From a virus: a stretch of DNA of 33,585 nucleotides. Positions 3,846-32,455 of the stretch are shown here, piece by piece. The translations under genes and the position numbers were made by a program. The DNA lies in IMG/VR virus record IMGVR_UViG_3300025840_000126, positions 1 through 33,585 of that record, one strand, 5' to 3'. Within the stretch, counting starts at the first letter, position 1; the number at the start of each line of letters is the position of its first letter. The notes beneath the pieces are model-generated. The model saw only the letters and a program-made list of their open reading frames with translations. It was not told the DNA's origin and searched no databases.

Positions 3846-4303
3846 GCTTAAAATTACAGTAATTTTTTTTTATTAATGTTAGCAAAATCTTTGCAAAGAT
3901 AAGCATTTTTTTTTAATAACCTAATCCCACATTCAATAAGTTATAAACATTTGTTAAAATACTTTGTTAATAACTTGTGCAAATTAGTATTAAATTATTT
4001 GTATATGTAATAAATTTGTTGTATCTTTATAATACCGTCAAATTTTGGCGCCGCCCTACTTCTGCATTAGTACATAACCACAACAAAATGAAGTTCAATT
4101 TTATAAGTAGATAATATTTAGGAGTTATTATTGAAGTACGTTTATTCAGCGTTGCAAGAAACCTTCGCAAGTTAGTAAAAATAAAAGATAATCTTTCGCA
4201 AAAGTAGTGCGAAATGGTAAAAAATATATAGAAAAGTGTTTTTAGAGGGCAAAAAAATTATAAAAAAATTTTAAAGTCCTATTTTATAGATTAAAGGGTT
4301 AAT
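3846..4303. other. Long non-coding region upstream of the terminase (candidate packaging site or structured RNA)
   Basis: No ORF of credible length is present. The stretch holds a possible promoter (TTTG 3998-4001, 20-bp spacer, TATCTTTA 4022-4029), a lone GC-rich island TTGGCGCCGCCC near 4046-4057, and a perfect 7-bp hairpin TTTCGCA / TGCGAAA (4194-4200 with 4208-4214). The position immediately before the terminase small subunit is where phage cos/pac sites often lie; that role is inference. Confidence 0.45.
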
Positions 4304-4370
4304 GAAGGGTACGTGAAGGGTATAACATACCCTACATAATAAAGCTAAAGATAAAGCTAAGGTTAAAGCT
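4304..4370 (+). repeat. Composite AGGGT repeat, copy 1
   Basis: GAAGGGTACGTGAAGGGT at 4304-4321, inverted repeat AGGGTA-TAACA-TACCCT at 4317-4333, then an A-rich run of AAAGCTA/AAAGATA units to 4370. Closely similar composites occur at 27191-27275 and inside the initiator gene at 32114-32206. It ends directly at the terminase promoter. Confidence 0.75.
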
Positions 4371-4371
4371 A

Positions 4372-4403
4372 TTTGTATATTACTATTATTTTGTTTAGCT
4401 TTG
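4372..4403 (+). promoter_or_regulatory. Terminase promoter, leaderless class
   Basis: TTTG 4372-4375, a 20-bp spacer, TAGCTTTG 4396-4403. ATG 4408 begins only four bases after the -7 box, so transcription should start at or beside the start codon. Confidence 0.75.
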
Positions 4404-4407
4404 TATT

Positions 4408-4818
4408 ATGAGTGACGAAAAAGAAAAGTTACCTGACACGGAAAACTATGCGCCAAAAAGAACCTTTGGTCATCACAATGGCACGGGTAGAAAGAAGGGT
4501 AGTATAACCAAAACCACAAAGATAACAAGGGAGATACTTGCCAATGCTCTTAGTGGGCAGGAGGTAAATATTATGGATGCCCTTGAAAAGCTGTCGGCTA
4601 AGAACCCTGAAGCATATATCAATGCCATAGCTAAATTGCTAAACTACGCAATGCCAAAGCTACAATCAACAGAGATTAAAGCAGAGAACAGCAGAAAGAT
4701 TGAGATTAAGCTAGATGACAATGTTAGCTTAGATGAACTAAAAGCTAAGATGGAGAATCTCGAAAGAGATGACGATGACGATGATGACTTGGCAGACTAT
4801 ATCGAGATAGATGGATAA
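4408..4818 (+). CDS. terS: Terminase small subunit
   Basis: 136 residues. A basic N-terminal segment with FGHHNGTGRKKGSITKTTK, typical of phage small terminase/DUF5681-type proteins, is followed by helices (ITREILANALSGQEVNIMDAL, PEAYINAIAKLLNYAMPKL) that would mediate DNA binding and oligomerisation, and by a very acidic tail with a seven-Asp run (about 123-129). It overlaps the large subunit by eight bases. It would recognise viral DNA and recruit the large subunit; the preceding repeat and non-coding region are candidate binding sites. The leaderless promoter leaves no 5' UTR. Family assignment rests on motif, size and position. Confidence 0.8.
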   Translation: MSDEKEKLPDTENYAPKRTFGHHNGTGRKKGSITKTTKITREILANALSGQEVNIMDALEKLSAKNPEAYINAIAKLLNYAMPKLQSTEIKAENSRKIEIKLDDNVSLDELKAKMENLERDDDDDDDLADYIEIDG

Positions 4819-6238
4819 ACAACAGAAAAAGCAGTTGCTTCAGGCAATGGAGAAAGCCATATGCGAGAAATCGTTTTATGAGTTCTTCATCAGAGCCTTT
4901 GAGATTGCTGAACCCTCTGTTCCCATATCAGTAAACTTTCACCATAAATATCTTTGCGATTTACTACAAGCCGAAGCCGAAAGGATAAAAGAGAATCGAC
5001 CAAAGGATAAGGATATAATTATTAATATTCCATTCCGTAGTAGTAAGTCACTACTCGTTACGGTATTGTTTCCCGCTTGGTGTTGGGCAGTATATCCTAA
5101 GATGAGGTTCATCACAGCATCATACTCAGCAGAGATTAGTATAGAACACGCAACCAAGTCAAGGGATATAATCAATAGCGAATGGTATCAGAAACATTGG
5201 GGTGAAACCTATCAGATTAAGAAAGACCAAAACCTAAAGGCAAGATACGAGAATACTTTTCTAGGAGTTAGAAGGGCAACATCTGTTGGAGGTTCGGTAA
5301 CAGGGCAAGGTGGCGATATAATTCTAGTCGATGACCCTACCTCTCCGAAAAATGCAGCTTCGCAGATAGAAAGAGAAAATGCTAACGAATGGTATAAGTC
5401 AACATTGTATTCACGACTTAACAATCCAACAACGGGAGTTAGGATAATTATTATGCAAAGAGTACACGAAGATGACCTAAGTGGCTATCTTCTATTCAAC
5501 TCACCCGACAAACATAAGCATATATGTATTCCCGCAGAACTTTCTAGCGACTTAAAGCCTTCACACCTAGCTGACCAATATCAAGATGGTCTGTTTTGGA
5601 AAGAAAGGTTTTCACAAGAGGTTTTAGATGATTACAAGTCGGCACTTGGCTCTTATGGCTATGCAGGACAACTACAACAGCGACCAACACCTGCAAATAG
5701 CGGGATGATTAAGAAATCGTGGTTCAAGGTAGAAGAAAAACAAAAAGAAGGGGTAGTCAATTTTATAATCGACCCTGCATACACCGCAAGTGAGAAAAAT
5801 GACCCTTCAGCACTACTAGCCTATGTATTTGCTGACAATACTTGGCAAATAACATCAGTACAGAATGTAAGGTTGGAATTTCCCGACCTAGTAAAGCATA
5901 TAGTCAAGTTCGTAGAGAAGAATGGCTATACTACGCAGTCTAAAATATTTGTAGAGCCTAAAGCAAGTGGTAAATCCATTGTGCAGACACTTATGAGAGA
6001 AACAGGACTGAACGTAAGAGAAGATAAACCGCCTACCAAAGATAAGGTGGCTAGAGTGCAGGACATAAGTCCAACATTGGAAACAGGTAGAGTTACTCTA
6101 CTAAAGGGTGCTTGGAACGAGGAGTTCCTAATGCAATGCCAACAATTTCCTGCTGCAAGGCACGATGATATGGTGGATTGCCTAGTAATGACCGTAAATC
6201 AGCACTTTAAAGGTAAAAAAGTAGTATTTTTTGGATAA
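4811..6238 (+). CDS. terL: Terminase large subunit
   Basis: 475 residues with the two-domain terminase layout. ATPase: Walker A variant IPFRSSKS at 73-80, Walker B ILVDDP at 171-176. RNase H-like nuclease: FIIDPAY with Asp321, VEPKASGKS with Glu382, and AARHDDMVD with the acidic pair near 452-456. The C-terminal half follows the phage terminase C-terminal family (TIGR01630-like). It cuts concatemers and pumps DNA into the prohead through the portal, which here lies nearly 15 kb downstream. Normal length, no missing catalytic residue seen. Confidence 0.95.
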   Translation: MDKQQKKQLLQAMEKAICEKSFYEFFIRAFEIAEPSVPISVNFHHKYLCDLLQAEAERIKENRPKDKDIIINIPFRSSKSLLVTVLFPAWCWAVYPKMRFITASYSAEISIEHATKSRDIINSEWYQKHWGETYQIKKDQNLKARYENTFLGVRRATSVGGSVTGQGGDIILVDDPTSPKNAASQIERENANEWYKSTLYSRLNNPTTGVRIIIMQRVHEDDLSGYLLFNSPDKHKHICIPAELSSDLKPSHLADQYQDGLFWKERFSQEVLDDYKSALGSYGYAGQLQQRPTPANSGMIKKSWFKVEEKQKEGVVNFIIDPAYTASEKNDPSALLAYVFADNTWQITSVQNVRLEFPDLVKHIVKFVEKNGYTTQSKIFVEPKASGKSIVQTLMRETGLNVREDKPPTKDKVARVQDISPTLETGRVTLLKGAWNEEFLMQCQQFPAARHDDMVDCLVMTVNQHFKGKKVVFFG

Positions 6239-26710: not shown

Positions 26711-27192
26711 TGAAACTGCTGTGCTTACGATATAACCTTGCCTTAGATAGTACTAATGGTATGTTATTCTACGAAGGCTTTGCAGGATATGACTTTCTTT
26801 GCTATACACTAGAAGATGAGTACAGGAGAGATAAGGTCAAAGGAGAAACAATGATACCTTATGGAGTCTACGAAATCAAGTATAGAAAAGAGGGTGGCTT
26901 TCATAATAGATATACTGAAAGATTTGGCGATTTACATCGTGGTATGTTGCATATCACTAATGTTCCTAACTTTGAGCATATTCTCATACATTGCGGTAAT
27001 ACTGATGAACATACTAGCGGGTGTTTACTCGTTGGCGATTCGCAAGAAAACAACAACTTAGTTTCTGATGGATTTATAGGTAAATCTACACAAGCATACA
27101 AAAGACTTTACAAAATGGTTGCTGATGAACTTGATTTAGGTCATAGAGTAATTATTGAATATAAACACATTAATGATTTAATGGAAGTTTAA
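26710..27192 (+). CDS. DUF5675 endolysin-like peptidase
   Basis: 160 residues. Matches DUF5675, a phage family related to L,D-transpeptidase/peptidoglycan-cleaving folds: IPYGVYEIKYRKEGG, LHRGMLHITNVPNFEHILIHCGN at about 75-97, and EHTSGCLLVGD with Cys105 as presumed nucleophile together with His94. Placement between an XhlA-like protein and a holin supports a lysis enzyme. No signal peptide, so release depends on the holin. Confidence 0.8.
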   Translation: MKLLCLRYNLALDSTNGMLFYEGFAGYDFLCYTLEDEYRRDKVKGETMIPYGVYEIKYRKEGGFHNRYTERFGDLHRGMLHITNVPNFEHILIHCGNTDEHTSGCLLVGDSQENNNLVSDGFIGKSTQAYKRLYKMVADELDLGHRVIIEYKHINDLMEV

Positions 27193-27275
27193 CCCTTGCC
27201 AAAGGGTTCACAAAGGGTACTTTATACCCTATATAATAAAGCTAAAGCTATAAATAAAGATAAAGATAAAGTTAA
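27191..27275 (+). repeat. Composite AGGGT repeat, copy 2
   Basis: Two perfect hairpins, AACCCTT / AAGGGTT (27191-27197 with 27202-27208) and AGGGTA-CTTTA-TACCCT (27214-27230), followed by an A-rich run of AAAGCTA and AAAGATA units to 27275. The block AAGGGTTCACAA (27202-27213) is also in copy 3. It fills the gap between the endolysin and holin genes. Confidence 0.75.
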
Positions 27276-27279
27276 GGAT

Positions 27280-27669
27280 ATGAGTATATTGAGAAAAATA
27301 TTTAGTAGTGGAGCAAAGGATTTAGTAGATAGTGTTGGAACTGCTATTGATAAGATACATACCTCAGCAGAAGAAAAAGAACTTGTAAAAAATGAGATAA
27401 ACAAAGCCATCTATGAGTTTGAAAAGAATATTCAGGTAGAGGTAACTAAGCGTTGGGAAGCTGATATGAATGGTAATTGGCTTACCAAATCTATAAGACC
27501 ATTGTCACTAGCCTTCCTGTTGTTTGTGCTTACCATATTTACACTAATTGACTTTGGATATGTAGATATGGACATCAAAGATTCTTGGATTGACCTATGG
27601 CAACTATTAGCCATCACAGCCTTTGGTGCGTACTTCGGAGGAAGGTCGTACGAAAAAATTAAGAAATAA
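27280..27669 (+). CDS. Holin, 3TM_holin-like
   Basis: 129 residues from ATG 27280; an in-frame ATG 28 codons upstream would translate the repeat (KGSQRVLYTLYNKAK) and is unlikely. Amphipathic N-terminal half, then IRPLSLAFLLFVLTIFTLI (about 72-90) and WIDLWQLLAITAFGAYFGG (about 103-121) as membrane segments, ending RSYEKIKK. WLTKSIRPLSL and FGxYFGGRSYEK agree with the phage holin family 3TM_holin. It would form the inner-membrane lesion that frees the endolysin. Confidence 0.8.
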   Translation: MSILRKIFSSGAKDLVDSVGTAIDKIHTSAEEKELVKNEINKAIYEFEKNIQVEVTKRWEADMNGNWLTKSIRPLSLAFLLFVLTIFTLIDFGYVDMDIKDSWIDLWQLLAITAFGAYFGGRSYEKIKK

Positions 27670-29756: not shown

Positions 29757-29987
29757 ATGACAAAGATAGCAAATAACGAGTTTGAGAAATTCGTAAGAAT
29801 CACAGGAATGACTAAGCGTAGATTTAGTGAAGTAACAGGATTAAAAGGTACTAGCGTAACTAAATACCTAGAGAACCCTACAATGCTAAGGCTCAAGCAC
29901 TTACAACTATTGGCTGATGCCGATGAGTTTAAAGAACAAGAGGTTGGCGATGTTGAACTTTTAAATATGATAAACTATGTTAAATAG
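29757..29987 (+). CDS. Small HTH protein
   Basis: 76 residues, with FVRITGMTKRRFSEVTGLKG then TSVTKYLENPTMLRLKHLQLLA, matching an HTH of the lambda-repressor (XRE) type in which the second helix is RRFSEVTG and the recognition helix TSVTKYLENP. It would bind DNA, probably as a dimer, and could regulate early genes; candidate ligand of the dyad array at 1999-2088. It overlaps the next gene by 11 bases. Confidence 0.65.
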   Translation: MTKIANNEFEKFVRITGMTKRRFSEVTGLKGTSVTKYLENPTMLRLKHLQLLADADEFKEQEVGDVELLNMINYVK

Positions 29988-30390
29988 TATTGAGAGGAGG
30001 GAAGCATTAAATAAAGCAGTATGCTCTATTTATGGTGTGAATGAGAATGAACTATTTAGCGTAAGCAGAAAGCGAGAAATCATAAGTGCAAGGCGAATGG
30101 TGTTGTATTTTCTTCGCAAACACTATGGCGAAACCTATATGAGCATAGCTAAAACATTTAGTATGAATCACGCCACAGTAATACATCACATAACACAAAT
30201 GAAAAACTTTTTGGAGTTTGATAAGATGGAAGTTATAAACTATATCAAAGTTAGAGATTATGTGTTTGAGCAAAATAGTGAAGTAACACTATCAGAGGAA
30301 CTTGACCTCTTAAAAAAAGAGAAGTCTTTATTAGACGATAGATTAGAACAAATAGAAAATGAATTAAAATTATTAGACAATGGAAATTAA
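29977..30390 (+). CDS. DnaA domain IV-like protein
   Basis: 137 residues. Region 33-73 (EIISARRMVLYFLRKHYGET, MSIAKTFSMNHATVIHHITQM) fits the DNA-binding domain IV of DnaA, whose signature is an AR-x5-Y-x-LR helix, then an Ig-like HTH ending HTTVxHAI; here NHATVIHHI. The ATPase domain is absent. The C-terminal part is a coiled coil (LDLLKKEKSLLDDRLEQIENEL). It could recognise DnaA boxes of the phage or host and steer replication; Bacteroidetes phages often carry such domain-only proteins. Confidence 0.75.
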   Translation: MLNSIERREALNKAVCSIYGVNENELFSVSRKREIISARRMVLYFLRKHYGETYMSIAKTFSMNHATVIHHITQMKNFLEFDKMEVINYIKVRDYVFEQNSEVTLSEELDLLKKEKSLLDDRLEQIENELKLLDNGN

Positions 30391-31584: not shown

Positions 31585-31782
31585 ATGACAAGCAAATTTG
31601 ATTACAAACTATTTACCGATGTAACTTTTGAGGGTGTCGACCACAGAGACCATCCCGACTACTGCAATGCTTTCATTGCAAGTGCAGAGTACGATGGTAG
31701 ATATTTATCTGATGAGGAGTTAGATGAACTAAACGAGGATACGGATTTATTATACGAATTATTAATTGATAATTTATACTAA
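31585..31782 (+). CDS. Small acidic protein, first gene of the initiator operon
   Basis: 65 residues, strongly acidic, with VDHRDHPDYCNAFIASAEYD and YLSDEELDELNEDTDLLYEL. I recognise the pattern from small acidic phage proteins that lack a defined function; a DNA mimic or inhibitor is conceivable. It is followed five bases later by the initiator gene. Confidence 0.6.
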   Translation: MTSKFDYKLFTDVTFEGVDHRDHPDYCNAFIASAEYDGRYLSDEELDELNEDTDLLYELLIDNLY

Positions 31783-31786
31783 GACA

Positions 31787-32455
31787 ATGGCAAAACGAAT
31801 GACAGATACAGACAAATGGAAAAAAAGATTTGTTAGAGAATTATCACCACAACATAAGTTACTATGGTTCTACATATTAGATGACTGCAATCACGCAGGA
31901 ATATGGGACGTAGATTTAGAGGTAGCTTCTATCAGAGTAGGGTTTGACTTATCTTACGACAACCTGCCATCATCATTTGGCGAAAAAGTTATATCTTTTG
32001 ACAATGGCGATAAGTGGTTTATTCCTGAATTTATTGACTTTCAATATGGAGAATTAAACCCAACATCTAACGTGCATAAGTCAGTAATTGCACTTCTTGA
32101 GAAATATAAACTTGAAGGGTATGTGAAGGGTTCACAAGGGGTACAAAGTACCCTTAATAATAAAGATAAGGATAAAGATAAAGATATAGTTAAAGCTAAG
32201 GTTAAGAGGTTTGTTAAGCCAACAATCGAAGATATTTTTAACTATTGTTCTGAAAGAGAAAACAATGTAGATATTAGAAGGTTTTTTGATTATTATGAAA
32301 GTAATGGTTGGAAGGTAGGTAAAAATCCTATGAAAGATTGGAAAGCATCTGTAAGAACTTGGGAAAAGAATACTACCCAACAACAAAAAGTATCACAACC
32401 TAAACAAGTATTAACCGCTTGGGAACAAGCTAGAACACAAATCAACAATGGATAA
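31787..32455 (+). CDS. Replication initiator (O/DnaD-like)
   Basis: 222 residues from ATG 31787; the upstream TTG 31766 lies in the preceding ORF and is rejected. N-terminal winged-helix-type part (KKRFVRELSPQHKLLWFYI, WDVDLEVASIRVGFDL), a Lys/Asp-rich linker with a KDKDKDKD run, and a C-terminal FFDYYESNGWKVG, WKASVRTWEKN motif typical of phage replisome organisers that open an origin and load the host helicase. The linker is encoded by an iteron-like DNA segment (32114-32206), as in lambda O, whose gene contains the origin. No helicase or polymerase is encoded, so host recruitment is implied. Confidence 0.75.
   Translation: MAKRMTDTDKWKKRFVRELSPQHKLLWFYILDDCNHAGIWDVDLEVASIRVGFDLSYDNLPSSFGEKVISFDNGDKWFIPEFIDFQYGELNPTSNVHKSVIALLEKYKLEGYVKGSQGVQSTLNNKDKDKDKDIVKAKVKRFVKPTIEDIFNYCSERENNVDIRRFFDYYESNGWKVGKNPMKDWKASVRTWEKNTTQQQKVSQPKQVLTAWEQARTQINNG
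32114..32206 (+). repeat. Composite AGGGT repeat, copy 3 (inside the initiator gene)
   Basis: GAAGGGTATGTGAAGGGT (32114-32131), then TCACAAG, then the hairpin GGGTAC-AAA-GTACCC (32139-32153), then A-rich units AAAGATA/AAGGATA and AAAGCTAAGGTTAA to about 32206. Copy 1 differs from its opening by one base in 18 (GTACGTG versus GTATGTG). It codes the Lys/Asp-rich linker. Confidence 0.75.

Follow-up and report, generated by a model that had tools for sequence, protein, structure and literature searches.

A replication initiator gene that carries within its coding sequence a repeat module also found before terS and before the holin gene raises the question of what this module does at three such different places. 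The window, which is the whole stretch of 33,585 nucleotides analysed here (IMG/VR record IMGVR_UViG_3300025840_000126), shares 15 bp between its two ends, and it is therefore probably a circular, near-complete phage genome. The phage is marine and of a Bacteroidota-type host, and dozens of relatives have the same origin-like module at three fixed places. We consider it likely that the phage's own initiator binds all three copies as origin-type modules, with the in-gene copy being ancestral and the two non-coding copies serving as extra sites. The features on which this reading depends are as follows.

4294 to 4371, plus strand: copy 1, before terS; GGGT at 4296, 4307 and 4318, inverted ACCC at 4329, A-rich tract 4336-4371
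4372 to 4403, plus strand: Bacteroidota-type promoter, TTTG-N20-TAGCTTTG, immediately downstream of copy 1, a few bases ahead of the terS ATG at 4408
4408 to 4818, plus strand: terS, first gene after copy 1, assigned by its position before TerL (4811-6238); no named family
27192 to 27279, plus strand: copy 2, before the holin gene; ACCC at 27192, GGGT at 27204 and 27215, ACCC at 27226, A-rich tract 27233-27279
27280 to 27669, plus strand: holin, first gene after copy 2 (PHROG 3427 holin, E 1.1e-22)
31787 to 32455, plus strand: replication initiator, 222 aa; N-terminal domain at about 7-110, disordered linker 114-140, C-terminal domain 147-195
32115 to 32206, plus strand: copy 3, in the initiator gene; GGGT at 32117, 32128 and 32139, ACCC at 32150, A-rich tract 32157-32206

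The module consists of AAGGGT iterons spaced by 11 bp, followed by an inverted GGGTA..TACCC pair and an (AAAG[AC]T)n tract of 35-50 bp, and the window contains exactly three copies of it. In copy 3 the four GGGT/ACCC starts are exactly 11 bp apart. A first-pass annotation of this DNA had described a three-copy composite repeat at 4304-4370, 27191-27275 and 32114-32206. The repeat is real and its copies are closely similar, with refined limits of 4294-4371, 27192-27279 and 32115-32206; copy 1 has an additional iteron at 4294, and copy 2 opens with the inverted ACCC at 27192. The opening blocks of copy 1 (GAAGGGTACGTGAAGGGT) and copy 3 (GAAGGGTATGTGAAGGGT) match at 17 of 18 bases, as had been noted, and the stretch said to be common to copies 2 and 3, AAGGGTTCACAA, occurs in the window only at 27202 and 32126. 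A repeat search ranks the three copies as the window's largest family (83 nt), with 80% identity between copies 2 and 3 and 65% between copies 1 and 2. Clusters of at least three GGGT/ACCC words are likewise confined to these three places, and among 300 dinucleotide shuffles of the window 299 contained no composite element and one contained a single element. The placement originally proposed also holds: copy 3 encodes the disordered linker of the initiator, copy 1 is non-coding and upstream of the terS ATG, and copy 2 lies in non-coding DNA between the stop of a DUF5675 gene and the holin (27193-27279), its A-rich tract directly abutting the holin ATG at 27280. GC skew, suggested earlier as a means of mapping the replication start, is positive along the whole genome and mapped no origin.

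The identification of the 222-aa protein as the replication initiator is well supported but not proven. Judging from relatives, its start is likely the ATG at 31787 rather than the TTG at 31766. AlphaFold predicts confident N-terminal (7-110) and C-terminal (147-195) domains joined by a linker (114-140) with pLDDT of about 28-41. In profile searches the C-terminal part has hits to unnamed PHROGs and a weak one to the family phrog_8489 (E 0.006 with the window protein; of 30 members 13 match, the best at 1.6e-4), which hints at a resemblance of this domain to DnaD-like helicase loaders. Some distant relatives of the initiator match O-like and other replication-initiation families. Searches of the PDB by profile and by predicted fold returned zero matches, and a viral fold library gave matches with low TM-scores, a few of which bear the names replication initiator or replisome organizer. 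The genes upstream of the initiator include those of an SSB and of a DnaA-domain-IV protein. The latter is a stand-alone DnaA domain IV protein (29977-30390; Bac_DnaA_C, E 1.3e-15) that lacks the ATPase domain and is kept in most relatives.

To follow the element across related phages, relatives of the initiator were taken from IMG/VR, of which 18 long contigs were read from end to end, giving 19 with the window. All 19 contigs carry the element in the initiator gene. Upstream of the holin it is found at a distance of 57-100 bp in all 17 contigs that hold a holin, and upstream of terS in 15 of the 17 that hold terS, being missing in G010 and G015. In every one of the 19 it lies on the coding strand. 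Same-strand GGGT words are spaced by 11 bp in 31 of 32 pairs in the initiator gene and in 17 of 18 before the holin, while the terS copies contribute 18 eleven-bp pairs; this spacing suggests recognition of double-stranded DNA on one helix face. Beyond these contigs, the element precedes the holin in 44 of 79 readable holin relatives. An independent scan of 2.9 million viral contigs, using the non-coding form of the element as the search pattern, yielded 81 classified sites, of which 51 lie before a holin and 28 before terS; the other two are cut by contig ends, and no site was found elsewhere. The non-coding copies are thus kept in position, strand and composition, and the shared function proposed earlier, against which a lack of conservation in relatives was to count, survives this check. 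A search for DNA matches to copy 2 in cultured phages found none.

The element also occurs together with the initiator. Among the informative members of the holin set, 29 have both element and initiator, none has the element without the initiator, one has the initiator without the element, and 18 have neither (Fisher p = 2.6e-12, uncorrected for kinship). It should be noted that this co-occurrence could in part reflect shared ancestry. All 29 informative element-bearing holin relatives thus have the initiator, although two of them, whose contigs run for less than 4.6 kb rightward of the holin, were untypable as GGGT in the linker. Conversely, 18 of 19 informative element-less holin relatives have no initiator, also when whole records are considered, and no 11-bp GGGT doublets. 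The search was extended to seven element-less TerS relatives (L320-L326) and yielded five initiators, whose similarity is confined to the C-terminal part or its vicinity. In the two that were read (L325:4379-5030 and L321), the same C-terminal part is combined with a different N-terminal domain, and the linker contains GGGGGTATTAAAGAAAAC repeats instead, which would be another type of in-gene origin.

Within the initiator gene, the sequence appears to be constrained beyond what the protein demands. Counting residues from the TTG at 31766, the Gly118 codon is GGG in all 67 distinct initiator genes, compared with 19 of 515 glycine codons outside the linker, and Lys121 (AAG) and Gly122 (GGT) are invariant across the same 67 genes. 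Moreover, two alternative linker peptides, of the KGSQGVQSTL and KGSQTLPEGV types, both retain the GGGT/ACCC layout. From these codons, the in-gene copy is kept at the DNA level, with selection at synonymous sites. The co-occurrence of element and initiator, together with this DNA-level selection in the linker, leads us to infer that the initiator binds all three copies.

According to the explanation that we favor, two to five iterons with the core AAGGGT would be displayed on one helix face by their 11-bp period and closed by the inverted pair, and the A/purine-rich tract that follows would be the part that melts easily. The copy within the initiator gene would be the ancestral origin, of the lambda/SPP1 type. 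Those before terS and the holin would be extra initiator sites acting as further origins, as fork barriers like SPP1 oriR, or as both; as barriers with initiator bound, they would stall forks and favor a switch to concatemers, which are the substrate of packaging. Initiator bound at terS may in addition influence the adjacent late promoter. No promoter was found between copy 2 and the holin start, and any transcriptional role of this copy would therefore be that of a roadblock at most. Which copies would fire, and with what effect on the late genes, is something that we infer. The location of the copies and, at terS, also a promoter at a conserved distance make the coupling of origin firing to packaging and lysis a hypothesis. 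Its extended form, in which the initiator is a temporal switch that uses the in-gene origin early and the terS and holin sites to time concatemer formation, packaging-gene expression and lysis, is put forward tentatively and is in our judgment doubtful.

The Bacillus phage SPP1 is the best-known case for multiple phage origins and for the switch from theta replication to concatemers. Its oriL lies inside gene 38, and about 13 kb separate it from oriR, which is in the late region; each contains direct repeats and an AT-rich unwinding region and is bound by gp38, and it has been proposed that oriR-bound gp38 stalls forks and so turns replication to concatemers (PMC6316719, PMC3485210). The same arrangement is found here, in that an origin module lies inside the initiator coding sequence (copy 3, in 19 of 19 contigs and under codon constraint), a second module of the same organisation lies in non-coding DNA near late genes (copies 1 and 2), and direct repeats and an AT-rich region are present as 11-bp iterons and A-rich tracts. 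One initiator serves both origins in SPP1, and here a single initiator is putative, from its co-occurrence with the element. The present phages differ from SPP1 in having two extra sites, fixed before terS and the holin, and in their 11-bp GGGT iterons, inverted pair and hexameric A-rich tract, and they are Bacteroidota-type phages. Origins of the SPP1 and lambda type are known already; the clade-specific three-site layout beside packaging and lysis genes is new.

In lambda, gene O contains iterons followed by an AT-rich region, placed between the parts that encode the DNA-binding and partner-binding domains. The lambda ori lies within gene O (PMC6022878). The parallel with lambda drawn in the first-pass annotation is borne out as far as iterons and AT-rich DNA inside the initiator gene are concerned; it does not extend to homology with lambda O, since the window initiator has no match to the lambda O-like PHROG 678 at E 0.01 and three of 30 relatives, all distant, do. 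Lambda also differs in its single ori and in its iterons. A further in-gene origin has been postulated for phage P1, with oriL placed within repL and an AT-rich part that is sensitive to synonymous change (PMC9948254); the protein is a different one, and the abstract of that paper does not mention extra copies. Ectopic copies of the lambda ori block lambda (PMC4488673). Because extra origin copies can titrate the initiator, the number of sites may, by analogy, be tuned.

Several other explanations were weighed against initiator binding at origin-type modules. The non-coding copies might be operators rather than origins, with the initiator on all three copies switching the late packaging and lysis genes as an activator or roadblock. 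Both copies are indeed directly upstream of late genes, and the terS copy stands at a near-constant distance before a promoter of the Bacteroidota type (consensus TTTG/TANNTTTG; PMC6847099), with TAnnTTTG located 53-73 bp past the hairpin ACCC in the relatives where this was measurable; G010 and G015, without the terS copy, are also without a recognisable promoter at that place. However, the full module has been copied, including an A-rich tract of 35-50 bp that an operator would not need, and the missing promoter before the holin also weighs against operators, which we therefore regard as unlikely. Less probable still is that a different DNA-binding protein of phage or host uses the element as its regulatory site, and that the element is in the initiator gene by chance. 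Further DNA-binding proteins are encoded nearby, the DnaA domain IV protein among them, but the presence of the element goes with that of the initiator type that has this N-terminal domain. The DnaA-like protein itself is disfavoured as the binder, since tblastn did not find it in four relatives (G010, G014, G015 and G017) that all keep the element.

An action as RNA, for example as a leader hairpin or antitermination site, or as a translation signal would agree with an element strand that is always that of transcription, and with the position of copy 2 against the holin ATG, given that A-rich upstream sequences aid translation initiation in Flavobacterium (PMC6847099). Such an action is very improbable in view of the 11-bp helical phasing, the variation in iteron number and orientation (including a triple ACCC lacking the hairpin in the L129 clade), RNA folding little or moderately better than that of shuffles (z of -0.5, -1.5 and -2.3), the zero matches of the element in an Rfam search and the mid-gene position of copy 3; a role solely as translation enhancer was rejected for copies 1 and 3. 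The idea to which we give the least credence is that of a dispersed repeat, or homology at module boundaries used for recombination, acting without a binding protein. The copies do lie where modules meet, and relatives have exchanged element-bearing lysis modules and element-less ones, but the collection-wide scan never found the element elsewhere, its position is kept through deep divergence and synonymous sites in the linker are under selection. A pac site at all three copies was rejected, one copy being in a gene and one before the holin.

The favored reading, that of origin-type modules bound by the initiator, can also be considered in more distant clades. Iterons at 11-bp spacing, followed by an A-rich tract, are present in nearly every linker of the wider family with this N-terminal domain, and the iteron word differs: it is AAGCCCCTTNN in many members and TCCCCCATTTA or TGGGG in Pan5 and L125. 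Further copies outside the initiator gene were not seen in the stretches read of genomes with these words, and the extra copies are limited to the window's clade and the L129 clade. The GCCCC types have the in-gene copy only, in the stretches read, so that an origin of this kind can do without extra copies. In Pan5, which has the same N-terminal domain, the linker iterons are TGGGG/CCCCC words with an 11-bp period, and the whole genome of this phage contains no convincing second iteron copy. This record (ON968456.1, Pseudanabaena phage Pan5, 35854-36660) is that of a cyanophage with a member of an otherwise Bacteroidota-type initiator family, and it may be worth re-examining the host given for it. 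Only the C-terminal part of the initiator is matched in Vibrio phages, Seahorse and a gut phage, and the GGGT element was not seen in them.

The L129 clade (about 45 loci), sister to that of the window, has an initiator linker with neither iterons nor an A-rich tract, and ACCC/GGGT elements with AAAGNT remain in many of its loci. One element follows a metallophosphoesterase gene and precedes the TAnnTTTG promoter of the replication operon, the other precedes the gene cluster leading to terS, and some members have three ACCC in a row with the hairpin absent. A tree of the N-terminal domain groups the window and L129 clades apart from the GCCCC types (98/96), which have linker iterons, making loss of the linker copy in the L129 clade the simpler history. 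This arrangement indicates that non-coding copies can suffice. Several origins per genome would be in keeping with oriL and oriR of SPP1 (PMC6316719) and with a sister clade that has lost its in-gene copy.

This uncultured marine group offers a comparative system in which natural variants make the roles of extra sites testable: genomes with three sites, with two (the terS copy absent, or the holin copy, as in L064), with non-coding copies only, and with a single in-gene origin of other iterons. It bears on why some phages have more than one origin and on the switch from theta replication to concatemers, and it provides a rule for locating origins in many Bacteroidota phages, namely 11-bp iterons with a GC core and an A-rich tract in the initiator linker.

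Other repeats and conserved blocks were observed in the same genomes. At 1998-2086, four direct repeats of about 20 bp (CTTAGTGTCGTTTGTACACT) with inner GTGT..ACAC dyads and 22-25 bp spacing lie in an AT-rich stretch upstream of a gp88-like gene and look like an operator array. The non-coding block ACGTTTATTCAGCGT at 4138-4152, before copy 1, has 90% mean pairwise identity in 14 genomes and is possibly a packaging or regulatory site. Finally, in many relatives G-rich repeats of the GGGGGTAC type follow the initiator at a distance of 1.5-3 kb downstream (for example, L024:2884, L044:11654 and L075:5720), apparently inside coding sequence and with unusually many GGG runs.
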